Positions 5,033 to 20,743 of a stretch of 35,821 nt of DNA are shown in pieces. The stretch is from NCBI GenBank assembly GCA_025928585.1, contig JAICJG010000017.1, positions 1-35,821 on the forward strand. The letters are read 5' to 3'. The DNA is from Rhodanobacteraceae bacterium (GTDB lineage Bacteria > Pseudomonadota > Gammaproteobacteria > Xanthomonadales > Rhodanobacteraceae). The notes below the pieces were generated by a model, which saw only the letters and a list, made by a program, of their open reading frames with translations, was not told the DNA's origin and ran no database searches. Each line of letters begins with the position of its first letter. Position 1 is the stretch's first letter. The translations under genes and the position numbers were made by a program.

Positions 5033-5058
5033 CAGAACCCTTGAGCCATGCTTCCTAC

Positions 5059-5167
5059 GAGGCGGCTGTTGCGAAAAGTCAGGCCATAGAGGCATTCTGG
5101 TGCAGCAGATTCGAGGCGAAGCCGCTTATCGCTTCATCCAGCGAGGCAGTGATCATGGACGATCGCA
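5059..5167 (+). repeat. Dispersed ~110-bp repeat, copy 1
   Basis: The left part (GCGGCTGTTGCGAAAAGTC then AGGCCA) is identical to copy 3 over 25 bases with one difference. The right part is GATCATGGACGATCGCA, close to copies 2 and 3. It is 109 bases long and stops right at the TAG of the SDHAF4-like gene (5168-5170). No ORF lies inside. Read on the minus strand, it would form the 3' untranslated end of that gene's mRNA. Confidence 0.75.
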
Positions 5168-5332
5168 CTAAAAGTCGATGCAGCGCCCGTTCTTCTCCCA
5201 ATCGCCGTAACGCGTGGGATCGAGGCCGTCGCCTTCCGGCGTCGGACGTTCGCGGGGCGCGGGCGCCTGCGGCGATGGCTGGCTGGGCGGCGCCTCGCCC
5301 GGTGCCGGCGTGTCGGATGATGGTTCGGCCAT
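5168..5332 (-). CDS. DUF1674 / SDHAF4-like succinate dehydrogenase assembly factor
   Basis: This 54-residue protein has a Pro-rich, probably disordered N-terminal half and ends DPTRYGDWEKNGRCIDF. That is the diagnostic C-terminal motif of the DUF1674/SDHAF4 family. In eukaryotes SDHAF4 binds flavinylated SdhA and protects it until it joins SdhB. The gene lies on the sdh strand, 235 bases upstream of sdhC, which supports the same role here. The ATG at 5332 is preferred over one at 5374, which would add 14 unrelated residues. The ribosome site is weak (GGAAGA about 11 bases upstream). Confidence 0.88.
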   Translation of the reverse strand: MAEPSSDTPAPGEAPPSQPSPQAPAPRERPTPEGDGLDPTRYGDWEKNGRCIDF

Positions 5333-5438
5333 CGTGCTCGGATCTTCCGGAATCGCAAATGCACATTGTCGCACTCGGCGCTCGCTCGCGCATCGACAAC
5401 GCTGCTACGGTTACGCGAGTTCTTCCGGCGAACCTGCG

Positions 5439-6242
5439 ATGACCCGGTCCTGTCCAACGCTCGGCCATGCCCACTGCCTCGCGATCGAAGGCGCCGACGC
5501 GCGCCGTTTTGCGCAGGCGCAATTCTCGGGCAACCTGGATGCGCTCGTGCCGGGACACTGGCAGTGGAACGCGTGGCTCTCGCCGCAGGGGCGCGTGCGC
5601 GCGCTGATGCACCTCGTGGACGCGGGCGACGGCAACCTGCTTGCCGTGCTGCGCGGTGGTGACGCGCAGGAAATCCGCGCCGCGCTGGCGCGCTTCCTGT
5701 TGCGGGCGCGTGCGACGCTGGCGGTGCAGGCGTTCGAATGCCTCGCGGGTGGCCCGGCCGCGACGGGAACGGCCGTGCGCGAGGTGGGCGCGATCGTGCT
5801 TGGCCATGGTTCGCGCAGCCTGCGCCTCGAGACGGCTGCGGCAGCAGCGGCGCCGCGCGACCCCGCCGCGCGCATGGCATGGCGCCTCGAGGACATCCGC
5901 CGAGGTTGGCCCACCCTGCCCCGGGGGGAACCGCAATTCCTTCCGCCGGCACTCGGGCTCGAGCACCTGCGGGCGGTGTCGTTCGACAAGGGGTGCTACC
6001 CCGGCCAGGAAATCGCGGCGCGCCTTCGCTATCGCGGCGGGCAGAAGCACCGCCTGTACCACCTGCGGGGTCCGGCGCCGCCGGCGGGCGATGGGCCGAC
6101 CCTCCCGAAGGGAATCACATGCCTGGATGCAGTCACCCGCGAAGGTACCACCGACATGCTGGCGGTCGGCCCGGTGGACCTGCCGCAGGAAATCACGGTG
6201 GCAGACCGGACCCATCGGGTCATCACCGCGTTCGATCCCTGA
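5439..6242 (+). CDS. ygfZ: YgfZ/GcvT-domain folate-binding Fe-S maturation protein
   Basis: The 267-residue protein carries the YgfZ signature KGCYPGQE with Cys186, followed by ARLRYRGG. YgfZ is a tetrahydrofolate-binding protein that helps build or repair certain iron-sulfur enzymes, succinate dehydrogenase included. It is shorter than E. coli YgfZ (about 326 aa), as in related Xanthomonadales proteins. It is divergent from the SDHAF4-like gene and its ATG lies 107 bases from that start, so the two share a regulatory region. The start was set by the onset of family-like sequence. No strong Shine-Dalgarno is visible. Confidence 0.92.
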   Translation: MTRSCPTLGHAHCLAIEGADARRFAQAQFSGNLDALVPGHWQWNAWLSPQGRVRALMHLVDAGDGNLLAVLRGGDAQEIRAALARFLLRARATLAVQAFECLAGGPAATGTAVREVGAIVLGHGSRSLRLETAAAAAAPRDPAARMAWRLEDIRRGWPTLPRGEPQFLPPALGLEHLRAVSFDKGCYPGQEIAARLRYRGGQKHRLYHLRGPAPPAGDGPTLPKGITCLDAVTREGTTDMLAVGPVDLPQEITVADRTHRVITAFDP

Positions 6243-6903
6243 ACGGTTGGCGTCCGGCCGCGCCGTTCCGCGCCGTCTGCCGGGGCCGGTCGAAGCCGCC
6301 GTGATCGCCCCTTGGCCCGCGCTTGCAGGTCAACAATTTCAGTGGCTTGTGCGAACAATTTTGCGACGTTTCTTGCGTGGGTTTCCCAACCCAATCTAAA
6401 CGTCCCGGTGTCCGCCGGCAGCATGGCACTTGTGCCGGCCGCGAGCCGCCCGTAGGCTTCCCCCCGTCCAGAGCCCGGGCCTGCTTCAGCCCGGGGGCCG
6501 CACGCGATCCGCGGATCCCGCATCACGTGCGACGGCGAACCTTCGCCGATTGCCGAACGTCGTTGGCACATTGCGGAACCTCCCAGCCCCGGCCCCTTGC
6601 CGGCGATCGCTTCCAGGTTCCGGCCGACGCCCAACCATTGCGGCGCAGCCCCTGCGCGCCGTGTTCCAGAGCCAGGTGCCGGCCTGACCCGGCATGTGGT
6701 GCACAGGGTGTGTCCACGCCATGCGTGGTCGCGCAGATGGCCCCTTGCCTGCAGCGCAAGGAACAGCGAGGAAGAGGTATGGCGACACCCAGACGAGCGA
6801 AGACCCAGCCAGGCGGTCAAGGGGTCCCGGCCCCCGAGCTTCCTCCGTGGCAAACGCCCTGCGGCGATGCCCGCCCTGACCTTGCGTCAGGGAGTACGCC
6901 CCG
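6243..6903. other. 660-bp gene-free stretch with multiple hairpins
   Basis: No ORF here has family character or a ribosome site. Bases 6330-6400 are much more AT-rich than the surroundings and look like a promoter region (TTGCGA, TTGCGT, then TCTAAA near 6395). Downstream there are strong hairpins: GCCGGCA/TGCCGGC at 6414-6439, CCCGGGC/GCCCGGG at 6474-6495, and GGCGAA/TTCGCC just after 6530. The stretch ends in the hairpin next to the 6904 start. It may be a long structured 5' leader for the hydrolase or contain a small RNA. I could not match it to a known riboswitch, RNase P RNA, 6S RNA, SRP RNA or tmRNA. Confidence 0.4.
6874..6892 (+). promoter_or_regulatory. Hairpin covering the ribosome site of the SleB-like gene
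   Basis: CCCTGAC-CTTGC-GTCAGGG is a perfect seven-base-pair stem. The likely Shine-Dalgarno AGGGAG (6889-6894) lies mostly in its 3' arm, nine bases before the ATG at 6904. Folding would hide the ribosome site. Confidence 0.55.
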
Positions 6904-7335
6904 ATGACCCTGGGCCTGTTGCTCGGCATGATCGCGCTGCTTCCGCGGCCGGTTGCCGACCAGACCTGCCTTGCCGCCACCGTGTACATGGAGGCGCGCA
7001 GCCAGCCGACCCGCGGCCAACTGGCCGTCGCCGAAGTGGCACTGGACCGTCTCGACATGGGGCGTTACGGCGACAACATCTGCGAAGTCGTGACCGCTCC
7101 ACACCAGTTCGCGCTGACGACCAACTCGAAGAACTTCCGGATCGACAATCCCCGGGCTTGGGACAAGGCGTGGAAGATCGCCGGCAAGGCCATTGCGATC
7201 TGGAACGAACCGAGCAAGGACCGCAAACTGGTGGTGCCGGGCGCGGACCATTTCATACGCCTGGGTTCCAGCGCGAACTGGGCGAAGAACCCGATCGCCA
7301 CCATCGGCGACCACGAGTTCTACGCGGTCGATTGA
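6904..7335 (+). CDS. SleB-family cell wall hydrolase
   Basis: The 143-residue protein starts with a short hydrophobic signal-like segment (MTLGLLLGMIALLP). It then has CLAATVYMEARSQ, matching the Hydrolase_2 (SleB/CwlJ) core in which the Glu of the EAR motif is the likely catalytic residue. GQLAVAEVALDRL and the late IGDHEFY also fit the family. SleB-type enzymes are lytic transglycosylases acting on peptidoglycan. Non-sporulating Proteobacteria carry them as general wall-remodelling enzymes in the periplasm. It is monocistronic, with a structured leader and an intrinsic terminator 18 bases after the stop. Confidence 0.87.
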   Translation: MTLGLLLGMIALLPRPVADQTCLAATVYMEARSQPTRGQLAVAEVALDRLDMGRYGDNICEVVTAPHQFALTTNSKNFRIDNPRAWDKAWKIAGKAIAIWNEPSKDRKLVVPGADHFIRLGSSANWAKNPIATIGDHEFYAVD

Positions 7336-7352
7336 GCGTGACGCCCGGCAAG

Positions 7353-7379
7353 AAAAAGCCCTCGATGAGAGGGCTTTTT
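7353..7379 (+). terminator. Intrinsic terminator after the SleB-like gene (bidirectional)
   Basis: AAAAAGCCCTC-GATGA-GAGGGCTTTTT forms a GC stem flanked by A- and T-runs. It ends the rightward hydrolase transcript. Because the stem is symmetrical it can also stop the leftward lipoprotein transcript after it passes the repeat at 7405-7515. Confidence 0.93.
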
Positions 7380-7404
7380 CCTGGACGAAACGAACGGTCT
7401 GTGC

Positions 7405-7515
7405 GGAGTGCCTTTGGTGGAAAGCCAGGCCATGGACGGCCGTTCCGGCGCTTCATGGCCACGAGGAATCCGCACGACGAACCGCTTGGGGCTACCGCGA
7501 TCATGGATGATCGCA
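7405..7515 (+). repeat. Dispersed ~110-bp repeat, copy 2
   Basis: This is the most diverged copy on the left (TGGAAAGCCAGGCCATGGACGG). On the right it holds the perfect palindrome GCGATCAT-GG-ATGATCGC (7497-7514). An inner palindrome-like GGCCATGGACGGCC is at 7428-7441. It ends one base before the TGA (7516-7518) of the leftward lipoprotein gene. The orientation is the same as copies 1 and 3. Confidence 0.7.
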
Positions 7516-8037
7516 TCAGTAATGAAAGACCTGATCGCCGCGGATCATCACGTAGTCGCCGACCTGAACCTGCGGCGGATTGCGCTGGGTGACCGTTGCG
7601 TACTGGCCGTTGTTGAGCTGTACCACCACCTGCCAGCCGTAATCGCCGTGACCCGTGCGCTCACCGATGGCGTGCCCCGCGAACCCGCCGCCGACCGCGC
7701 CGGCGACCGTCGCGGCGGTCTTGCCCTTGCCTCCGCCGATCTGGTGTCCGACCAGGCCGCCGACCACGGCACCGATCACGGTGCCGAGCGCGGCACCGCT
7801 GCTGTTGCCGAGCTGGACTTCGCGGATGTCACGCACGTATCCGCAGCCCTGGTAGCACTGTCCGCCGCTGCCGTAGCTGGGCGGCGGTGCGCCGTAGCCG
7901 GGCGGCGGTGCGCCGTAACCGGGACGCGTGCTGTAAGCCGGCGCGCAGCCGGCCATCATCAGCGCGGCGACCGCAAGGCAAATCATCGGGACCACGCCGC
8001 GTGCGGCGAAACGGTGTCCGGGTATTCGTTTCCACAT
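7516..8037 (-). CDS. Glycine-zipper 2TM-domain lipoprotein
   Basis: The 173-residue protein has an N-terminal signal with lipobox MAGC (cleavage before Cys). A Gly/Pro/Tyr-rich spacer follows with three PGYG/PSYG-type repeats. Then comes a glycine-zipper hairpin, AALGTVIGAVVGGLVGHQ then GGGKGKT then VAGAVGGGFAGH (17-kDa surface antigen / Gly-zipper_2TM type). A C-terminal QVVVQLNNGQY domain closes the protein. It is predicted to be an outer-membrane lipoprotein. The start at 8037 has GGAGCAG upstream, and an upstream ATG at 8076 would precede this site. It is a paralogue of the next gene upstream, 35 bases away. Confidence 0.87.
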   Translation of the reverse strand: MWKRIPGHRFAARGVVPMICLAVAALMMAGCAPAYSTRPGYGAPPPGYGAPPPSYGSGGQCYQGCGYVRDIREVQLGNSSGAALGTVIGAVVGGLVGHQIGGGKGKTAATVAGAVGGGFAGHAIGERTGHGDYGWQVVVQLNNGQYATVTQRNPPQVQVGDYVMIRGDQVFHY

Positions 8038-8072
8038 GGCTCTGCTCCTTTTTCGTGCGTCATGCACTGAAA

Positions 8073-8750
8073 TCATTGGTGGGAATCGCCAGCCCCTCCG
8101 CCGTTGGCCACGACCACCCCGTTGTGCACCGGCAGCCCCGTGCCCACGCGCGGGTTGTGATCCATGCGGACGTGCCCGGTGTGGCCGTTCAAGGTGTAGG
8201 TCACGTCATAGCCGACCGTCCTGGTGGAGGTGGACTTGTCGGTGACGGTATGGCAAACGTTGCGGGTTTCCGTGGTGGCCTGGTTGTTTTCCTGGTGGTG
8301 CTTCTGGATCTCGTGGCCCGCGTACGCGCCCGCCGCCGCACCGCCGATGGTCGCGAGGGTCTTGCCCTTGCCGCCGCCGACCTGGTGCCCGGCGAGCGCA
8401 CCGACCAGTCCGCCGACCACCGCGCCACCGATCTGGTTCTTGTCCTTGTAGGTCTCGGGCACCGCCACCTGTTCGTCGCGGCACACCTGGCGCGGGTGGC
8501 TGCTGGTGGTCGATTCGGTGACCGGTTGCACCGCCACGACCCGCGCGAACCGGGCCTGCGCGGCGCCAGACGGCTGCTCCGGCGCGGCCTGCCCCGGCGG
8601 CAACGGGGCGGTCGCCGCCGAAGTCGTCATGTTGGCGGGCATCGCCTGCGCCTGCGGATTGCCTTGTCCCCCGCATCCGGCGAGTGCGACCGCCAAGGCG
8701 GTGGCGCACGACACCGGTGCGGCCCGCATCAATCCTGCGATGTATCCCAT
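8073..8750 (-). CDS. Glycine-zipper 2TM-domain lipoprotein (paralogue)
   Basis: The 225-residue protein has a signal with lipobox LAGC, an Ala/Pro-rich linker, and a Cys-containing central part (RQVCRDEQ). A glycine zipper (GGAVVGGLVGALAGHQ, GGGKGKT, then IGGAAAGAYAGHEI) follows, and the C-terminus has TVGYDVTYTLNG. The GHQ-x-GGGKGKT segment is nearly identical to the downstream neighbour, which shows tandem duplication. GKGKT sits in the turn between the two zipper helices and is unlikely to be a nucleotide-binding P-loop. AGGGAG precedes the ATG. The two genes likely form one leftward envelope-lipoprotein operon. The function is unknown. Confidence 0.87.
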   Translation of the reverse strand: MGYIAGLMRAAPVSCATALAVALAGCGGQGNPQAQAMPANMTTSAATAPLPPGQAAPEQPSGAAQARFARVVAVQPVTESTTSSHPRQVCRDEQVAVPETYKDKNQIGGAVVGGLVGALAGHQVGGGKGKTLATIGGAAAGAYAGHEIQKHHQENNQATTETRNVCHTVTDKSTSTRTVGYDVTYTLNGHTGHVRMDHNPRVGTGLPVHNGVVVANGGGAGDSHQ

Positions 8751-8860
8751 CTTGGTCTCCCTGCAACGTCGTTATGGCGATGCGATTCAAACAAGCCGAG
8801 AATGAACGTGACGTCAACTGCCCCCATTCCGTTCATGTTCCGTTCGAACGTGGCAACACC

Positions 8861-9658
8861 ATGACGGACCGGCCCGTACTCTTCGACAGCCACGTGCACC
8901 TGGATGCCGCGGAGTTCGACGCGGATCGTCCCGAGGTCCTGCGGCGTGCGCGCGACGCGGGCGTCGAGCAGTTGCTGATCCCCGCGGTGAGCGCGGACGG
9001 GTGGCCACGACTGCACGAGCTCTGCGCTGGGGATCCCGGCCTGCATCCGGCATACGGTCTGCACCCGTGCTATCTGTCGCGGCATGCGGATGATGATCTC
9101 GCGCGGCTGGGGGACTGGCTGCGCAGCCACCCTGCCGTGGCCGTGGGCGAATGCGGGCTCGATCATTTCGAAGAAGGCCTGGACCGCGCCCGGCAGTTGC
9201 GCCTGTTGCACGGTCACTTTGAATGGGCGCACCACTTCGACCTGCCGTTGGTGCTGCACGCGCGCCACGCGTTCGCACAGGTGATCGAAGCCGTGCGCGC
9301 CTTCGGCAAACCGTTGCGCGGTGTCGTACACAGCTTTTCCGGCAGCCTCGAGCAGGCCCGCGAACTGTCGCGGATCGGGTTCCTGGTGGGAATCGGCGGA
9401 CCCGTGACCTACGAGCGCGCACACCGGCTGCGGCGGATGGTCGCCTCGTTGCCGGTCGAATGCCTGGTGCTCGAAACCGATGCACCCGACCAGCCGGGCA
9501 CGCAGCACAAGGGCAAACGCAACGAACCGGCCTACCTTGCCGATGTCCTCGGTTGCGTCGCTGCGCTGCGCGGCGTCGATGCGGATGAACTCGCGCAGCG
9601 AACCACCGGGAATGCACGCCGGCTGTTCCTGCGCGAGCATCTACCCGCGGTTCGGTAG
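8861..9658 (+). CDS. TatD-family metal-dependent hydrolase
   Basis: The 265-residue protein has the TatD metal-site motifs in order: DSHVHLD (HxH), VGECGLD (Glu), LVLHARHA (His), GVVHSFSG (His) and LETDAPD (Asp). These define a TIM-barrel two-metal hydrolase. TatD-type proteins act as DNA 3'-exonucleases in repair. This subfamily is closest in look to YjjV/YcfH, whose substrate is less clear. The ATG at 8861 begins directly with the first strand, and longer in-frame starts add unrelated sequence that overlaps the divergent lipoprotein promoter. It is convergent with tcdA, and the 145-bp gap holds nothing notable. Confidence 0.94.
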   Translation: MTDRPVLFDSHVHLDAAEFDADRPEVLRRARDAGVEQLLIPAVSADGWPRLHELCAGDPGLHPAYGLHPCYLSRHADDDLARLGDWLRSHPAVAVGECGLDHFEEGLDRARQLRLLHGHFEWAHHFDLPLVLHARHAFAQVIEAVRAFGKPLRGVVHSFSGSLEQARELSRIGFLVGIGGPVTYERAHRLRRMVASLPVECLVLETDAPDQPGTQHKGKRNEPAYLADVLGCVAALRGVDADELAQRTTGNARRLFLREHLPAVR

Positions 9659-9803
9659 GTGGAGCCGATCCCGCGTTCGTTCCGGCAGAAGCCCGACAGC
9701 CGATTCCAGCGGGGTGCGACTTCGTGACGAGAGGCTTGGTCCGCGCGGTCGCTGGCCTTCACTGCGCCCAGCACCAACCCACGGGAGCACCGTCGCGCAC
9801 GGA

Positions 9804-10580
9804 TCAGCGCTTCGGCTTCAGCAACATTTCCAGCGCCCGCCCTGCCGCGGCGAAGCCGAACGCCGCGGTCACGTGGGTTGCCGCACCGAGTCCACCGCCG
9901 CAATCCAGTTTCATGGAATCCGCGCCATCGGGCCGCACGCCGCACACGCTGCCGTCGGATTGCGGATAGCGCACGTTCTGCAGCGAATACACGGCCGGAA
10001 CGCCGAAATAGCGGTCCGGATTCGCCGGGAACCGGAACTCCTGCCGCAACTTCCGGCGCACCAACCCGAGCAGCGCGTCGTGCTCGGTACGCGACAGATC
10101 GCGTACCCGGATCTGGGTCGGGTCGGTCCGGCCCCCAGCCGAACCGCACACGATCAGCGGCAGCTTGCGGCGCCGGCACCACGCGGTCATCTCGACCTTC
10201 ACCCGGAACGCATCGCAGGCATCCAGCACCAGGTCGAATCCCCGATCGAGCAATTCAGCGAGCGTCGCCGGCGTGACGAACCGTTCAACCGGCCGCACCT
10301 CGAGCTTCGGATTGACCGCGCGCAGCCGCCCGGCCATCACCACGACCTTGGGCATACCGTGGGTATCGGCCAGCGCGTGCAGTTGCCGGTTGGTGTTGGA
10401 GACGCAGACTTCGTCCGCATCGATCAGGGTGAGCGCGCCGACACCGCTTCGCGCCAGCGACTCGGCGGCCCACGACCCCACCCCGCCCAGCCCGATGACG
10501 GCCACGTGGGTGCCGGCGAGGCAGGCGACGCTGCCCGAGCCGTAAAGACGCTCGATTCCGGCAAAACGGGGATCGATCAT
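9804..10580 (-). CDS. tcdA: tRNA threonylcarbamoyladenosine dehydratase
   Basis: The 258-residue ThiF/MoeB/HesA-type protein has a nucleotide motif IGLGGVGSW near residue 30, the adenylation residues of DADEVCVSNTNRQ, and the TcdA-like VLDACDAFRVK. TcdA activates the carboxylate of t6A37 in tRNA with ATP to form the cyclic ct6A. The length (E. coli 268 aa) and the downstream YSLQNVRYP region fit TcdA better than MoeB or ThiF. It follows the DUF962 gene by 19 bases on the same strand, so the two are probably co-transcribed. Confidence 0.92.
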   Translation of the reverse strand: MIDPRFAGIERLYGSGSVACLAGTHVAVIGLGGVGSWAAESLARSGVGALTLIDADEVCVSNTNRQLHALADTHGMPKVVVMAGRLRAVNPKLEVRPVERFVTPATLAELLDRGFDLVLDACDAFRVKVEMTAWCRRRKLPLIVCGSAGGRTDPTQIRVRDLSRTEHDALLGLVRRKLRQEFRFPANPDRYFGVPAVYSLQNVRYPQSDGSVCGVRPDGADSMKLDCGGGLGAATHVTAAFGFAAAGRALEMLLKPKR

Positions 10581-10599
10581 GCGCGGGCAGCGGCCACGG

Positions 10600-10896
10600 T
10601 CAAAGCCGGATCCGCCCGCGCAGGATTCCCGCGAACATCACCCAATCGCCCATCAGGCTGTACCAGGGATGCCGGAACGTGGCCGGGCGGTTGCCCTCGA
10701 ACGCCAGGTGCCCGATCCACGCGCAGCCGTAGCCGGCCACCGGCATGCCGATCAGCCACCACGGATGGCGGGTGACGATCGCCACGACGAGGAAGGCGAT
10801 CACCAGCCACGATCCGAGGAAATGCATGCGACGGCAGCGTCGATCGGCATGCTCGCCGAGATAGAACGGATAGAACTCGCGGAAACTTCTGTACAT
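10600..10896 (-). CDS. DUF962 / Mpo1-like membrane protein
   Basis: From the ATG at 10896 this 98-residue protein begins MYRSFREFYPFYLGEH and has two or three hydrophobic helices. The conserved polar positions of DUF962 are present: H in LGEH, H in RMHFLGS, and the GHLAFEGN and PATFRHP stretches. Yeast Mpo1 of this family is an Fe-dependent 2-hydroxy fatty acid dioxygenase, and the bacterial role is unproven. Starts at 10905 or 10908 are also possible, because GTGGG lies just before them. The ATG at 10932 is rejected since it falls in the cspA terminator. Confidence 0.82.
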   Translation of the reverse strand: MYRSFREFYPFYLGEHADRRCRRMHFLGSWLVIAFLVVAIVTRHPWWLIGMPVAGYGCAWIGHLAFEGNRPATFRHPWYSLMGDWVMFAGILRGRIRL

Positions 10897-10918
10897 GCGG
10901 CGCATCATCCCACCAAAC

Positions 10919-10948
10919 AAAAAACCCCGCATGGCTGCGGGGTTTTTT
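10919..10948 (-). terminator. Intrinsic terminator of the cold-shock gene
   Basis: On the minus strand, AAAAAACCCCGC-AGCCAT-GCGGGGTTTTTT gives a six-base-pair GC stem flanked by A- and T-runs, 22 bases past the cspA-type stop. It separates that gene from the DUF962-tcdA pair, whose first codon is about 22 bases further on. Any expression of that pair from the cold-shock promoter would need read-through. Confidence 0.93.
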
Positions 10949-10970
10949 GTATGGCAGGGACAATGCTGGC

Positions 10971-11180
10971 TTAGGCGGGCTGGACCTGGTCGGCCTGCAG
11001 TCCCTTCGGGCCCTGGACGACGTTGAACGTCACCTTCTGGCCTTCCTGCAGAGACTTGAAGCCGGTGCCGGTGATCGCGCGAAAATGCACGAACACGTCT
11101 TCGCCATTTTCACGGCTGATGAAACCGAAGCCCTTGGCATCGTTGAACCATTTGACGGTGCCGGTCTGACGCTCCGACAT
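10971..11180 (-). CDS. CspA-family cold-shock protein
   Basis: This 69-residue cold-shock-domain protein has both RNA-binding motifs, KGFGFIS (RNP1) and DVFVHF (RNP2). It begins [14 protein letters not shown]. It binds single-stranded nucleic acid and melts RNA structure. AAGGAG lies eight bases before the ATG, which fixes the start. The upstream region is long and structured, as is usual for cold-shock genes. Which paralogue it is cannot be told from the sequence. Confidence 0.96.
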
Positions 11181-11215
11181 AACTGACTCCTTACTACTCG
11201 ATTTGGTTGAAAACA

Positions 11216-11231
11216 GCGCACGCGCGTGCGC
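11216..11231. promoter_or_regulatory. Perfect 16-bp palindrome upstream of the cold-shock gene
   Basis: GCGCACGCGCGTGCGC is a perfect palindrome 35 bases upstream of the cold-shock start. It is probably in the mRNA leader, where it could form a hairpin, or it could be a protein-binding site. Confidence 0.4.
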
Positions 11232-11303
11232 AACCTGAAGCACTGACTAGCGAGCGTGAAGACAGCGATGCGATCGTTGACACGGTCAGCAACCAGCCCC
11301 AAA

Positions 11304-11325
11304 CAAACCGCCCCCCGACGGTTTG
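11304..11325 (-). promoter_or_regulatory. Hairpin with weak T-rich tail upstream of the cold-shock gene
   Basis: CAAACCG/CGGTTTG is a perfect seven-base-pair stem with an eight-base G-rich loop (minus strand), followed by TTTGG. It lies 124 bases upstream of the cold-shock start. If transcribed, it could be an attenuator or temperature-sensitive leader element. It may instead end an upstream transcript (the small membrane protein at 11408). Confidence 0.35.
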
Positions 11326-11407
11326 GCTAACTCAGCGGGCGCGATCCTACAGCAATTTTGCCCCCAAGCGCCAGTGCATGCCCAGGGTGGATTTTCGCCC
11401 GGATGGA

Positions 11408-11698
11408 TCAATCGCGCTCGGCCCGGCGGCACAGGTTTTCCTCGATGCCGACGAGCGCCGCGAGGGTGCCACTGACCACCAGCGCGGCCAGCCCATAGCC
11501 GATCAGGCCAAGCACCGTCCCGAGCGCCAGCGCGGCGAGGCTGCTGCCGGTACCGTGGACCGCGAGCGCGACCCCGTACGCGACTCCGGCCGCCACCAGC
11601 AGCATCCCGATCCAGGCGATTACCCGGGCGGTGGCGAGCGCCAGCCCGAGACGGCGACTTTGCAACCGTTGGTACGGGAGCCAGCGGCGTGGTTCCAT
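11408..11698 (-). CDS. Small two-helix membrane protein, unknown function
   Basis: This 96-residue protein has a basic N-terminus (MEPRRWLPYQRLQSRR), two long hydrophobic helices (about residues 24-48 and 53-82) and a charged tail. GAGGAAA lies eight bases before the ATG, which supports translation. I recognise no family. It stands alone between the repeat at 11724-11836 and the cold-shock gene, all on the minus strand. Confidence 0.72.
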   Translation of the reverse strand: MEPRRWLPYQRLQSRRLGLALATARVIAWIGMLLVAAGVAYGVALAVHGTGSSLAALALGTVLGLIGYGLAALVVSGTLAALVGIEENLCRRAERD

Positions 11699-11723
11699 CA
11701 GCGGTTTCCTCGTTGCTCGGTAC

Positions 11724-11836
11724 GGAGCGGCTGTTGTGAAAAGTCAGGCCAGGGATGGCCGTTCTCGTGCTCGTGACCCCGGCAACACCTCTCGAACACG
11801 AGCCGTTGGAAGGTGCCGCGATCAGAGATGATCGGA
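11724..11836 (+). repeat. Dispersed ~110-bp repeat, copy 3
   Basis: The left end (GGAGCGGCTGTTGTGAAAAG then TCAGGCCAGGGATGGCC) matches copy 1 closely. The right end is GCGATCAGAGATGATCGG (11818-11835). The TGA of the leftward M14 peptidase gene (11822-11824) lies inside this right palindrome. CTCGTG and CACGAG in the middle can pair. Read leftward, the end is a GGCCATCCCTGGCC stem followed by TGACTTTTC, which resembles a weak terminator. Confidence 0.78.
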
Positions 11837-14587
11837 TGACCAATGCGTGATGGCGTTGAAGAACATCCGGTAGCTGCCGATCGTCTCGCCCCGCCACACC
11901 GGGTTGTTGGCGAACAGCACCACGTGGCCCTTGCCGTAGCGCGCATCGACCACCGCCGCGTGGCCCGCCATGCCACCAGCGTTTTCCAGCAGTCCGCTGA
12001 CCAGCAACCGGCCGGAGTCCGCCCAGCGGGCGACGACCGTCGGCCGCTCGTTCTGCGGAATCACGAACGGATTGTTGCGGGCCTGTTCGGCATTCAGCGG
12101 CACCGGCTGCCAGGGTTTCACGTCGGGCAGGCCGGGTGGGGCCTGGTAGGGACGGCCTTCCGGGACGTCGGCATCGTCCGGACCACCGCGCCCGGTCGGC
12201 CGATGATAGTCCTTTGCGGTAGTGAGGCCGCGGTTGCCGATCGTCTGGTTCGCCACGTCGAAGGACATGCCCCCGGAACTGTACAGCGCAAAAGACTTCC
12301 GGTAACCCGCGGCGAGCGGGCTTGCCTTGTCCACGAGGTCGGCGCGCAGCACGCTGCCGACCACCCGCAGGTCGCCCGGTTTGGCGACTGACACTCCGGG
12401 GGCGAGGCCGATGTCGATCGCGAAGCGGGCGGTATCTTCCGAAGCCACCAAGAGGCCGCCCGCGGCAACAAAGCGCTTCAGGTTCTCGACGCCCGACTCG
12501 CCGAGGCCCGGACGCACGTCGGGCGTGGAATCGATCACGCCGAGGTTCGGCGTGAGTGCCGTCTTTTCCCACGGCATCGGATTGCCGTACCTCGGCAGGC
12601 CGTCAATGATCAACCTGCTGTTGGCGTAACCCACCGGCCCGAACAGGATCACATCGTACTTCGCCCGCAGGTCCGGCGCGCGCGAGACATCCTGGGTACT
12701 GATGTAGGTGTAGGGCACGTGCAGCTTGTCGAGCGCCATCCGCCACCAGCCTTCGGTTTGCGTCGAAAGCCAGGTGTGCATCAGCGCGATCCTCGGCACC
12801 CGGCCCTTCACGCCCAGCGATGCCAGCGAAAAGGCGGACTGGTCGAACCCGCCCTGCACTTCCTGCATCGGCACCTTCAGCACCGAGGTGTCGAGGACCC
12901 GCGCGACGTCCACGCCGAACAGGTCGCCGAACGACCAGCCGGTATCGTCGTAGGGGTGCTTTTGCGGATCGTCCGGAGACCAGTACTGGCGATCCAGCAG
13001 GGCATCGGCGATCCGCGAATACGGCTGGTCCATCCGGATGATCCAGCTTCCCGCCGGGAAGGTGCGCTCGACCGTCGCCACCCTGGGCGGCACCACCGCT
13101 TGCACGGATTTGCCCTTCGGGTTGGCGCTGCCGCTGCTTTCGGTGTCGTCCGCGACCTCGACCGTGAACGGCGCACTGGCGCGGCTGATTTCGACGTGTT
13201 GCAGATGCAGCGCGTGCAGCAGGTGCATCTGCGCGCCCTTGTGCTGCTCGTCGGCGGTGAGCACGTACGCCGCCGGCCCCGCGAGCCGCGGCTTCTCGAC
13301 CGACCGCTTGGACTTCAACCAGAAATTCTCGAGGAAGTGGTCGCGGTGCTGCGCGAAGTAGTACAGCGCGGTCAGGAGCCCCGATTCCTCGTAGTTGTTG
13401 TTGTCGCGCTGGGACCACTGCACCTTGGGCAGCGGCGGGTTCGGCTTGTACCAGGTGCGCGCATACTCGTCTGGATCGAGGATGCGCTCCTCGGTGTCGG
13501 CGCCGCCGTTGCCGAAGGTCTCGTACAGCCGGCTGATGCCATTGTGCATCGCCGCGATGAACATCAGATAGCCCGGGCTCCAGGTGTCGAAATCGCCATG
13601 GGTGAAGACGCCCGGCAGGCCGAGCCTGGTCAACTGCTCGACGTTGTTCCAGCCGATCTGCTGCCACTCGCTGGTGAGGATCGGGTCGATCCACGCGTTG
13701 TAGGGTCCGTCGCCCACCGTGTTGTCGTACAGGAACGGCACCGATTCGTGCAGGTCGTGCAGCACCTGCGCGTGCCAGCCGACATAGGTGTTCAGCACGT
13801 TCCGCGTGAGATCCAGCGTCACGCCCATCGCATCGCGGTTGTTGTCGTGCGCGACGTAATGGCCCCAGTAGAGCAGGTGCGGATAGTTCTCGCCGAGGTG
13901 GGCGCGGTGCCACTTGTACAGGTCGACCATCCGGTCGCGCCCGTCGACCTCCACGACCGGCGTGATCAGGGTGATCATGTGCGAGCGGATGTAACGGATG
14001 TACGGCGCGTTGTCGACGGCGAGGCGATATGCGAGTTCCATCAGCGCGGTCGGTGCGCCGGTTTCCGTCGAGTGGATGGTGCCGGTGATGTAGTAGACGG
14101 GCACCGTCTGCTTGATGAGCGCTGCGGCTTTCGCATCGTCCATGCCGAGCTTGCGCGGGTCGGCAAGCTGCGCGAGGCGCGCCCTGTTGGCCTCCAGTCC
14201 GGACATCAGCGACTCGTCGGCGATCGCGACGGCGATCATCTCGCGGCCTTCCTCGGTCTTGCCGATCGTGAAGACCTTCACCCGTGGCGTGGCCTTGGCC
14301 AGCATCCGGAAATAGCGGTACACGTCTTCCGCGTACGGCAGCATGTTCGGCGCACCGGCGATGTCGCCGAGCACCGCCGCGGGGGTGGGCACCGTCTGCG
14401 ATGCCGGCAGGTAATCGGTCAACGGCGTATTGAAATCGGGTCGCGTGGTGTACTTCGCGATCTTCGCCGTGTACGCCTCGGCGACCGGCTGCTCCGGGTC
14501 CCGCGCATAGGGATTGCCGGTCGCGGCCATCGCCGTGCCGCACAATGCCACCGACAACCATGCCAAAGCCAACGCGCTGCGCCGCAT
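11822..14587 (-). CDS. Secreted M14-family zinc carboxypeptidase-like protein
   Basis: The 921-residue protein has a signal peptide (residues 1-21, ending CGTAMA). The catalytic M14 domain has zinc ligands H172 and E175 in TIHSTETGAP and a later His in VLHDLHES (about 277-280). The long C-terminal half includes a glutamine-amidotransferase-like segment often seen in large M14 proteins. It is predicted to hydrolyse C-terminal peptide bonds in the periplasm or outside the cell. The ATG at 14587 follows GGTGGGGAG closely. An ATG at 14608 would add seven residues. Its stop lies in repeat copy 3. Confidence 0.9.
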   Translation of the reverse strand: MRRSALALAWLSVALCGTAMAATGNPYARDPEQPVAEAYTAKIAKYTTRPDFNTPLTDYLPASQTVPTPAAVLGDIAGAPNMLPYAEDVYRYFRMLAKATPRVKVFTIGKTEEGREMIAVAIADESLMSGLEANRARLAQLADPRKLGMDDAKAAALIKQTVPVYYITGTIHSTETGAPTALMELAYRLAVDNAPYIRYIRSHMITLITPVVEVDGRDRMVDLYKWHRAHLGENYPHLLYWGHYVAHDNNRDAMGVTLDLTRNVLNTYVGWHAQVLHDLHESVPFLYDNTVGDGPYNAWIDPILTSEWQQIGWNNVEQLTRLGLPGVFTHGDFDTWSPGYLMFIAAMHNGISRLYETFGNGGADTEERILDPDEYARTWYKPNPPLPKVQWSQRDNNNYEESGLLTALYYFAQHRDHFLENFWLKSKRSVEKPRLAGPAAYVLTADEQHKGAQMHLLHALHLQHVEISRASAPFTVEVADDTESSGSANPKGKSVQAVVPPRVATVERTFPAGSWIIRMDQPYSRIADALLDRQYWSPDDPQKHPYDDTGWSFGDLFGVDVARVLDTSVLKVPMQEVQGGFDQSAFSLASLGVKGRVPRIALMHTWLSTQTEGWWRMALDKLHVPYTYISTQDVSRAPDLRAKYDVILFGPVGYANSRLIIDGLPRYGNPMPWEKTALTPNLGVIDSTPDVRPGLGESGVENLKRFVAAGGLLVASEDTARFAIDIGLAPGVSVAKPGDLRVVGSVLRADLVDKASPLAAGYRKSFALYSSGGMSFDVANQTIGNRGLTTAKDYHRPTGRGGPDDADVPEGRPYQAPPGLPDVKPWQPVPLNAEQARNNPFVIPQNERPTVVARWADSGRLLVSGLLENAGGMAGHAAVVDARYGKGHVVLFANNPVWRGETIGSYRMFFNAITHWSSDHL

Positions 14588-14687
14588 CTCCCCACCCCGC
14601 TCGCCCATGGACCGGACAAGCGTAGCCAAATTCACGCCACCGCGGGGGTGTCGAAAGGCATGGAGGGACGGCCGGACGCCGTTCGTC

Positions 14688-15677
14688 TCAGGCCGCGACC
14701 AGCCACTGCACGCTGAACTGCCTGGCCGGGTCGGTCCAGACCTTGGCGACGCGCAACTCCGCGCGCGCAGCAAGGCGAGCGAATCCCTCCAAGGTGTACT
14801 TGCAACTGTATTCGACCAGCATCGCCTCGCCGCGCGTGAAATGGAACGTGCGATCCTCGATGTGCACGTCCTGCTCGCGCCGGCTGACGATGTGGGTTTC
14901 AATGCGCCCGGCGAGCGGGTGCCAATGCGCGCTGTGGCGGAAACCGGCCGGATCGAAATCCGCGCCGATCTCGCGGTTGAGCCGCACCAGCAGGTTGAGG
15001 GTGAATGCCGCGGTGACGCCCGCGGCATCGTTGTAGGCGGCTTCCAGTGCGGCCCGGTCCTTGACCAGATCGATGCCGATCAGCACGCCGCCGTCGAGCA
15101 CCCCGCCGCCCTGCCTCGCTTCGCTGCGCATCTGCCGCAGCAGCCGCAGGGCTTCGTCCGGCCCGAAGTTGCCGAGCGTCGAACCGGGGAAGTACACGAC
15201 CGTCTGGCGCGGCGCGCGCGCCGCGCGCGGCAGCGCGATCGGCGTGGTGAAATCCGCGCAGACCGGCAACATCTGGATGCGCGGGAACAGGCTGCCGAGT
15301 CTCGCCACGCTGGCGGAAACCGCCGTGCGCGAAATTTCGACCGGCACGTAGGCCACCGGGGATTCGAGGTTCCGCAGCAACATCCGGGTCTTGAGCCCGC
15401 TGCCGCTGCCGTACTCGACCAGCCGCACGTCGGGCCCCAGCGCCGCGGCGATGTCGCCGACGTGCTCGCGCATGATCGCGAGCTCGGTACGCGTCGGGTA
15501 ATACTCGGGTTGCTCGCAAATCCGCTCGAACAGGCCCGACCCGCGGGCGTCGTAGAAATACTTCGATGGCAGCCGCTTGGGTTCCGCGGCGAGGCCGCGC
15601 ACGGCATCGGCGAGGATGTCGCCGCGACCGGGGCGGCGGTCGTCGAGGCGAACCGCGCGCGCAGCGCGGCCACTCAT
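14688..15677 (-). CDS. egtD: L-histidine N(alpha)-methyltransferase (ergothioneine pathway)
   Basis: The 329-residue protein has the EgtD pattern PSKYFYDARGSGLFE near the N-terminus, the SAM motif VEYGSGSGLKTR (residues 87-97), FPGSTLGNF, and a conserved C-terminal EYSCKY region. EgtD trimethylates histidine to hercynine with three SAM. Its ATG overlaps the egtB stop by four bases (ATGA), so it is coupled to egtB. EgtD second in the operon after EgtB is a common proteobacterial layout. Confidence 0.95.
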   Translation of the reverse strand: MSGRAARAVRLDDRRPGRGDILADAVRGLAAEPKRLPSKYFYDARGSGLFERICEQPEYYPTRTELAIMREHVGDIAAALGPDVRLVEYGSGSGLKTRMLLRNLESPVAYVPVEISRTAVSASVARLGSLFPRIQMLPVCADFTTPIALPRAARAPRQTVVYFPGSTLGNFGPDEALRLLRQMRSEARQGGGVLDGGVLIGIDLVKDRAALEAAYNDAAGVTAAFTLNLLVRLNREIGADFDPAGFRHSAHWHPLAGRIETHIVSRREQDVHIEDRTFHFTRGEAMLVEYSCKYTLEGFARLAARAELRVAKVWTDPARQFSVQWLVAA

Positions 15678-20200: not shown

Positions 20201-20743
20201 TCAGTGCCCGTGGTAGTAATGACCCCGGCCGCCGCGGTCGCCGTCGCCGTCGCCGCCCCGCCAATGGCCGTACGAGCGGTCGTCACGCCCGCGGTACTCG
20301 CGACCACGATAGCGGTCGCCGCGATTCGAGTACACCACGCCGATCCTGACACGGCTGCCGTAGCTGGGCGGATAGGAGTAGCCGCCGTAGTAGGCCGGAT
20401 AGCCGTTGTACGAATACGCCGGATAGCTGTTGTACGAGTACGCGGGATAGCTGTTGTACGAATAGGCCGGGTAGCCGCCGTAATAGCCCGAGGGATAAGA
20501 CTGCGCCGGGTAGCCGTACCCGCCACCGTAGTAGCCGCCGTAGTAATGGTCATGATGGCTTGCGCTCGCCACCACCCCGCCGATCACGGCGCCGACGACC
20601 AAGGCGCCGACCACGGCTGCAGTGCGGTCACCGTCACCGCGATGTTCATGTGCCATCGCCACCGGCGTGGCGAGCACCGCCGCTGCGACCAGCGCGCAGG
20701 CGACCATCAGCTTGTTGCGAAACGAACCGGATCTGGCTTGCAT
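20201..20743 (-). CDS. Secreted glycine/tyrosine-rich repeat protein
   Basis: The 180-residue protein has a signal peptide (cleaved near residue 31, after PVAMA). A short glycine-zipper-like hydrophobic stretch follows (AVVGALVVGAVIGGVVA). Next comes a low-complexity Gly/Tyr/Pro region with three copies of an eight-residue YPAYSYNS-type unit. The tail is Arg/Gly/Asp-rich and ends GHYYHGH. It is probably exported and disordered, or a surface coat component. I recognise no specific family, and the low complexity makes homology weak. AGGG lies about ten bases before the ATG at 20743. Confidence 0.78.
   Translation of the reverse strand: MQARSGSFRNKLMVACALVAAAVLATPVAMAHEHRGDGDRTAAVVGALVVGAVIGGVVASASHHDHYYGGYYGGGYGYPAQSYPSGYYGGYPAYSYNSYPAYSYNSYPAYSYNGYPAYYGGYSYPPSYGSRVRIGVVYSNRGDRYRGREYRGRDDRSYGHWRGGDGDGDRGGRGHYYHGH
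20397..20468. repeat. Three 24-bp tandem repeats inside the Gly/Tyr-rich gene
   Basis: Units at 20397-20420, 20421-20444 and 20445-20468 follow GGATAGCTGTTGTACGAATA plus four bases, with two to four differences each. A partial fourth follows. Each unit encodes eight residues (YPAYSYNS type), so gain or loss of units keeps the frame. Confidence 0.85.

Follow-up and report, generated by a model that had tools for sequence, protein, structure and literature searches.

Two-hairpin repeats placed flush behind genes in a Rhodanobacteraceae genome: a REP-like composite and candidate 3'-end element

Introduction

Repetitive extragenic palindromic (REP)-like repeats are well known, and the usual explanation for their place directly behind genes is translation or a transposase resident in the genome. 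Palindrome-associated transposable elements (PATEs) and other non-autonomous IS200/IS605 elements carry a left-end and a right-end hairpin on one strand and have no inverted repeats. Here we describe an element of about 110 bases, made of two hairpins with the same loop, that occurs three times in a stretch of 35,821 nucleotides (the window; contig JAICJG010000017.1 of assembly GCA_025928585.1) from a Rhodanobacteraceae bacterium and at many other places of the same genome. It lies flush behind many protein genes and some tRNA genes in a fixed orientation, its stems covary across genera, its hairpins stay close to one consensus around a spacer that is free to vary, and the unit is gained or lost whole between species. 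The best-placed explanation, one to which we give somewhat less than an even chance and which is drawn from sequence comparison, is a REP-like composite that may be used as a 3'-end element of genes.

REP sequences and bacterial interspersed mosaic elements (BIMEs) with REP-associated tyrosine transposases (RAYTs), as described in PMC2817692, carry a GT(A/G)G head and resemble the element in their high copy number, extragenic location, GC-rich palindromes, arrangement in pairs or tandem groups and, for some, position behind genes. The element differs from them in having no such head (its consensus feet are a T-rich stretch plus TGT/GCGATC and CCAGAA/CGGCC), in having two differing stems that point the same way and are separated by about 53 or about 11 nt, and in not depending on a resident Y1_Tnp gene. 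The CGTC-tagged REP super-family (PMC3733652) shares small palindromes and dimers with the element, whereas no CGTC tag stands at the foot of either hairpin in the element consensus. In its working the element is closest to a REP dimer at the 3' end of a gene; having neither the tag nor the dependence on a transposase that define REP/RAYT, it is a variant rather than a member of that system. With PATEs and IS200/IS605 derivatives it shares end hairpins on one strand and the lack of inverted repeats; it differs in that no autonomous relative with its ends was found and no recent copies were seen. Because it also stands behind tRNA genes, occurs in all 16 searched genomes of the genus, including 9 in which no Y1 transposase was found, and keeps a nearly fixed distance between hairpins while the intervening DNA drifts, the candidate functions become separable and testable, and the Lysobacterales would gain a two-hairpin 3'-end element that a covariance model can recognise.

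Size and Distribution of the Family

The three repeats (Table 1) had been reported in the initial annotation with correct coordinates, lengths and common orientation. Copies 1 and 3 share GCGGCTGTTG(C/T)GAAAAGTCAGGCCA, that is, 25 bases with one mismatch, and the right-hand palindrome is present in all three copies, in an imperfect version in copy 1. The right ends do lie at stop codons of minus-strand genes as described, 1 nt away in copies 1 and 2 and overlapping in copy 3; read in gene direction, copy 1 gives TAG-T-hairpin and copy 2 TGA-T-hairpin, the hairpin starting with GCGATC in both, and the TGA stop of the M14 peptidase gene falls within the left hairpin of copy 3.

Copy 3 alone, used as a DNA query, finds at least 43 further places in the genome (2.73 Mb, 183 contigs), with a best E-value of 4e-15 other than itself among the best 40 of 90 candidates, and its recurrence is therefore not due to chance. 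Copies 1 and 2 are absent among those 43 places, and only the family model unites all three. This covariance model, R1, was built from 31 copies of the genome, those of the window included, and yields at least 144 matches with E<=0.1; for 129 of these, E is below 1e-6. Since the best 150, 56 or about 22 candidates per genome were scored in the model searches (150 here), copy numbers are lower bounds throughout. The copies are dispersed over many contigs, with tandem pairs and triples whose units start about 100–117 bases apart. A search for further copies, which the initial annotation had proposed and in which a lack of any match beyond these three would have spoken against a family, thus revealed a large one.

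All 16 searched genomes of the genus have R1 matches, at least 23–56 each among the best 56 scored, and the complete genome G014 has at least 71, with both strands represented, on which ground a link to replication polarity was set aside. A strict two-hairpin pattern, scanned over named genomes, hit 46 stretches, every one of them in a metagenome-assembled genome whose title names Lysobacterales, Lysobacteraceae, Rhodanobacteraceae, Rhodanobacter, Gammaproteobacteria or Proteobacteria, which makes an uncultured genus of this order the most probable host. No description of the element was found in literature searched by both hairpin strings (both strands) and by REP in related genera.

In other genera, R1 matches are of a sister form whose right hairpin reads AGCGGCCATCC[N]TGGCCGCACT and whose spacer is either long, as in the window's genus, or just some 11 bases with a sequence close to GA[AG]GATCAAGAA. 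The exact right-end pattern of the window's genus occurs in 14 of its 16 genomes and in none of the 217 other genomes of the family. With a second model, R2, built from 25 sister-form sequences and applied to 151 genomes of the order, at least 27 gave a match at E<=1e-4 when about 22 candidates were scored in each; 17 of the matched genomes belong to the window's family, this genome included, and at least 8 of that family have no match. Locus L309 of genome G049, which belongs to another family of the order, holds a short array of tandem CCCGGCCATCCATGGCCGGACTTTTCAAACAAGCC-like units that is perhaps a further compact form.

Anatomy and Pairing of the Hairpins

Read in gene direction, the element opens with a T-rich leader, continues with the left hairpin, the spacer and the right hairpin, and ends in a tail. 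The consensus leader, about T-R-T-T-T-G-T, is followed by the left hairpin GCGATC[AG]TCC[N]TGATCGC, then by GC[N]GCTTC, some 40 unconserved bases and ACCAGAA, and finally by the right hairpin CGGCC[N]TCC[N]TGGCCTG, ACTTT[TC]C and the tail ACAACAGCCGCTTCG. Both hairpins lie on the same strand and have the same loop, N-TCC-N-T, the conservation of which is flattered by the hairpin-picking motif, as this itself contains TCC (<=5 substitutions allowed on the left, <=10 on the right). From the 144 matches, 133 were taken for context, and both hairpins were recovered by motif in 91 of these. The distance between the two motifs is 50–55 bases in 83 of the 91 copies and exactly 53 in 35, and the spacer cores of those 35 have a mean identity of 0.317, compared to 0.273 when shuffled. 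RNA structure within these spacers was considered and rejected, since they gave no folding signal (mean z 0.08) and no convincing pairs.

The hairpin stems covary across genera. In an alignment of 25 sequences, 96.8% of the cells pair, a percentage biased towards the structure because this was drawn by hand after the consensus and because model scores decided which sequences entered; less affected by this bias, 6 of the 14 pairs show two-sided changes, a number reached in 0 of 500 shuffles. One left-stem pair in the window's genome is A-T in 67, T-A in 8 and G-C in 2 of the 91 copies.

Position at Gene Ends

A co-oriented stop codon of a called gene lies at -15 to +12 nt of the left hairpin in 61 of the 133 copies, against 3.4% for random placement in the same intergenic gaps and 5/133 for the mirror arrangement. 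Independently of a gene caller, an open reading frame (ORF) of >=100 codons ends in this range in 77 of 120 copies (random, 7.5%), and the same test gave 47/78 in other genomes of the genus (random, 7%). The stop-to-hairpin distances peak at 1–5 nt and at exactly -14, the latter in part because of the fixed TGA in the left hairpin; when that peak is left out, 54/120 remain (binomial p about 6e-29 against the random rate for the full range). Apart from copies with the stop in their left hairpin, one of the 133 lies inside a called gene and two broadly overlap one. Copies equally frequent inside or upstream of genes, named in the initial annotation as a result that would contradict it, were thus not what was found, although 44 of the 133 have a divergent gene start upstream. 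Outside the genus, 19 of 33 loci end an ORF of >=60 codons (random, 11.6%) and 3 more stand behind a tRNA; these 33 come from 39 loci, after 5 without a recognised left hairpin and 1 duplicate were left out.

The genes concerned are not only protein-coding. ARAGORN found 7 tRNA genes in the examined stretches, three of which (Glu, Pro, Pro) are followed by a co-directed element after a gap of 7–8 nt, and a comparison of all 37 tRNA matches of the genome with the 144 elements gave the same three within 60 nt. In other genera, tRNA-Glu is followed by an element or by the first unit of an array in four genomes (G020, G022, G030 and G033), and tRNA-Sec in another (G019). Moreover, in two rRNA operons of G032 (L305 and L308) a compact relative lies between tRNA-Ile and tRNA-Ala in the 16S-23S spacer, with a weak R1 score (23.9 bits) and a clearly readable right hairpin and tail. 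The tRNA genes directly before elements and the rRNA spacer case indicate that the rule is the end of a gene and that translation is not the common factor. The earlier proposal that each copy forms the 3' mRNA end of its gene therefore holds for the 3' end as the usual place, while its limitation to mRNA does not.

These cases also bear on a translational role. REPs of Escherichia coli within 15 nt of a stop codon are described as stalling ribosomes (PMC12306157), and a comparable brake would agree with stop-to-hairpin distances that are mostly 1–5 nt or -14. Such a brake is made very improbable as the explanation of the element by its equivalent placement after tRNA genes and within an rRNA spacer, where nothing is translated.

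The position likewise invites a reading as a family of intrinsic terminators, in which the right hairpin and TTTTC would end transcription with the assistance of the left hairpin. The GC-rich hairpin is followed by CTTTTC, copy 3 passes a simple terminator scan, the elements stand behind genes, and canonical terminators are found in the next 100 nt at 2 of 58 gene ends with an element compared to 10 of 131 without. This difference, however, is not significant (Fisher p 0.35; 3/58 against 19/131, p 0.085, at a looser threshold), and the T-tract comprises only 3–4 T and a C (the commonest tracts are ACTTTTC and ACTTTCC), being poorer still in many sister-form copies (ACTCTTCA). Additionally, the sequence beyond the T-tract is conserved, a native terminator-like hairpin is retained beyond copy 2, one element sits in an operon-like junction and the compact relative lies in the 16S-23S rRNA spacer. 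Strong termination is thus disfavoured and a terminator family appears improbable; the suggestion of a REP-like family acting as terminator stands as to the dispersed, REP-like family and is weak as to the terminator, given the short T-tract, the operon-like junction and the rRNA spacer.

Gain and Loss Between Species

Orthologous sites were located with the region of the window as query, and 12 genomes could be read at the copy-3 site and 14 at the copy-2 site. The element is present at the former in 6 of 12 (G000, which is the genome of the window, G004, G008, G009, G011 and G012) and absent in 6. At the latter, 3 of 14 (G000, G011 and G013) carry it, each one base behind TGA, and 10 have none; in the remaining one, G014 (L215), an element lies there in reverse, behind a convergent cell-wall hydrolase gene, and the terminator-like hairpin present in most other genomes read at this junction was not seen. 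Projected junctions measure 115–160 at the copy-3 site with the element and -1 to 16 in four genomes without it, two further genomes without it having 130–135 of other sequence. At the copy-2 site they measure 180–181 nt in the three genomes with the element, 62–83 in nine without and 108 in a tenth, so that the element boundaries first proposed are about right. Junctions without the element are mostly about 100 nt shorter, and this pattern of length and presence or absence indicates that the unit is gained or lost whole. Copy 3 stands between two genes that otherwise lie close together as in an operon, and the junction has no space for a promoter in front of the second gene.

Whole-unit gain and loss is also what would be expected of a non-autonomous mobile element of the IS200/IS605 or REP/RAYT type, whose hairpins would be the ends bound in trans by a Y1 transposase, with strand-specific insertion without target duplication and with the gene ends as an outcome of selection or of target choice. 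The unit is discretely present or absent between species, tandem copies occur, the two same-strand hairpins with one loop lie near the ends, and no inverted repeat links the consensus ends. The end GACTTTTCCCGACAGACGCTTCCG beside one Y1_Tnp gene of the genome resembles the element tail (14.3 bits, E 0.004). One contig (C88; L141) contains two Y1_Tnp (RAYT-like) genes, at about 5476–6336 and 11780–12410, the first flanked by GGGGTCAGAGTCGACTTTTCCCGACAGACGCTTCCG (CCGGGGTCAGAGTCGACTTTTC-type ends), in part similar to the tail; this resemblance is the best hint of what may be a mobile origin.

On the other hand, only 7 of the 16 genomes searched in the genus have Y1_Tnp matches (above the cut-off in 6; 6 of the 13 more complete genomes), several of the nine without a match being drafts, whereas elements are present in 16/16. 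Together with the lack of a GTAG or CGTC tag in the consensus, this speaks against the RAYT partner for which the initial annotation had proposed to look. Moreover, only two weak element matches (14.3 and 8.3 bits) were found beside 13 Y1_Tnp loci with flanks of up to 1.5 kb, and descent in place is seen at a minimum of 4 of 21 sites. A search for recent transposition among the 91 copies yielded no recently copied pair: the most similar pair (0.98) stems from a duplicated contig end and has identical flanks, the second (0.80) shares its flanks, and all others reach at most 0.73 (mean 0.50), array neighbours being set aside. The flanks of the element in the compared genomes are too diverged for a base-level reading of the junctions. 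The earlier proposal of a mobile element directed to gene ends has in its favour that whole units come and go between species, but none of the 91 copies points to recent transposition, and a mobile element as the whole explanation is possible, though somewhat less likely than a REP-like composite used at gene ends. An integron attC site was likewise rejected, since the consensus ends are not complementary to each other and the copies are dispersed, with no cassette array.

The Opposite Strand

With the closing pair, the loops read C-N-T-C-C-N-T-G in the sense and C-A-N-G-G-A-N-G in the antisense direction. Among the better-matching hairpins of the 91 copies, 65 of 85 on the left and 49 of 62 on the right contain the exact antisense core CANGGANG, against 0 on the sense strand; both antisense cores are exact in 49 of the 91. 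The two most variable loop positions are the free positions of the CsrA consensus. According to PMC4005645, the high-affinity CsrA/RsmE site is a hexaloop ANGGAX placed directly on a stem, and the element, if its opposite strand is read, resembles the sponge hairpins of RsmZ treated there in its ANGGAN hexaloop, short stem and two hairpins per unit. The element may then be a double CsrA/RsmA-type site with both loops as ANGGAN hexaloops on a C-G-closed stem, that is, a dispersed double binding site carried by RNA antisense to gene ends. The nearly fixed spacing of the two would suit such a site, and a csrA gene lies in one locus of a relative of the same genus. It differs from RsmZ-type sponges in being dispersed in at least 140 places and in lying on the strand opposite to the gene, where no hint of a promoter was noticed. 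The reading would require an antisense transcript, no promoter-like sequence was seen in the tail by eye (no scan was run), and the position and orientation of the element follow the sense gene, for which this reading does not account. We consider this binding site a long shot; if it were real, at least 100 gene ends would form a distributed sponge or an antisense control layer instead of one dedicated small RNA.

Proposed Role and Constraint

For a REP-like composite used as a gene 3'-end element, the following course can be proposed. The element would be transcribed together with the preceding gene, and its hairpins in the RNA could act as a barrier to 3'-to-5' exonucleases and/or as a processing signal, which would fix where the preceding cistron or tRNA precursor has its 3' end. 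A putative protein may recognise the conserved loop, and the element could have originated as a mobile REP-type dimer, later kept by selection where it was helpful to its neighbour. Such a role at the RNA level is put forward because mRNA and tRNA ends, the operon and rRNA-spacer cases and the covarying stems all fit it.

Evidence on constraint comes from 21 orthologous element pairs, drawing on 16 different copies of this genome, in which identity is 0.88 in the left hairpin, 0.85 in the right end, 0.60 in the spacer and 0.80 in the upstream coding DNA. Here several observations weigh against the proposed role. Unrelated copies are nearly as alike (left hairpin 0.875, right end 0.827, spacer 53%) and the hairpin finder used for the orthologous pairs requires motif similarity, so that purifying selection is suggested and not measured; what the two sets of identities indicate is that the ends stay close to a common family consensus whatever their site. 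Only 4 of the 21 orthologous pairs have spacers above the 99th percentile of unrelated ones (0.68–0.82) and show descent in place, which leaves room for independent gains at the remaining sites. A divergent gene start lies upstream of 44 of the 133 copies, and only some of these are tandem followers, tRNA ends or missed small genes. In the left stem, the loop-closing pair aside, G-T cells (14) and A-C cells (11) are about equal, and folding of the sense strand is therefore not proven. Finally, a barrier to exonucleases does not account for the conserved tail past the right hairpin.

Features of the Window

The coordinates are collected in Table 1, in which the DUF1674 gene is the one named SDHAF4-like in the initial annotation. 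No Rfam 15 family matches the window, and 7 related loci match rRNA and tRNA families only.

Table 1. Copies of the two-hairpin element in the window, their parts and the adjoining genes.
Feature	Position	Strand	Description
Copy 1	5059..5167	-	Family-model match 5051-5176(-), 91.7 bits
Gene before copy 1	5168-5374	-	Pfam DUF1674; stop TAG + 1 nt
Terminator-like hairpin beyond copy 2	about 7353-7379		AAAAAGCCCTC..GAGGGCTTTTT
Copy 2	7405..7515	-	Family-model match 7397-7524(-), 91.6 bits
Gene before copy 2, glycine-zipper protein	7516-8076	-	Pfam PF05433; stop TGA + 1 nt
Gene downstream of copy 3	11408-11698	-	Called start about 24 nt past model core
Copy 3	11724..11836	-	Family-model match 11716-11845(-), 97.5 bits
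Copy 3, tail after right hairpin	down to about 11723	-	ACAACAGCCGCTCCG
Copy 3, right hairpin	11747..11761	-	C-GGCCATCCCTGGCC, then TGACTTTTC
Copy 3, spacer	11764..11817	-	54 nt; in the family, length near-fixed and sequence unconserved
Copy 3, left hairpin	11818..11835	-	CCGATCATCTCTGATCGC; family consensus as in text
M14 peptidase (zinc carboxypeptidase) gene	11822-15028	-	Pfam Peptidase_M14; end overlapped by copy 3

Elsewhere in the window, positions 20389–20508 hold an array of 24-base direct repeats.

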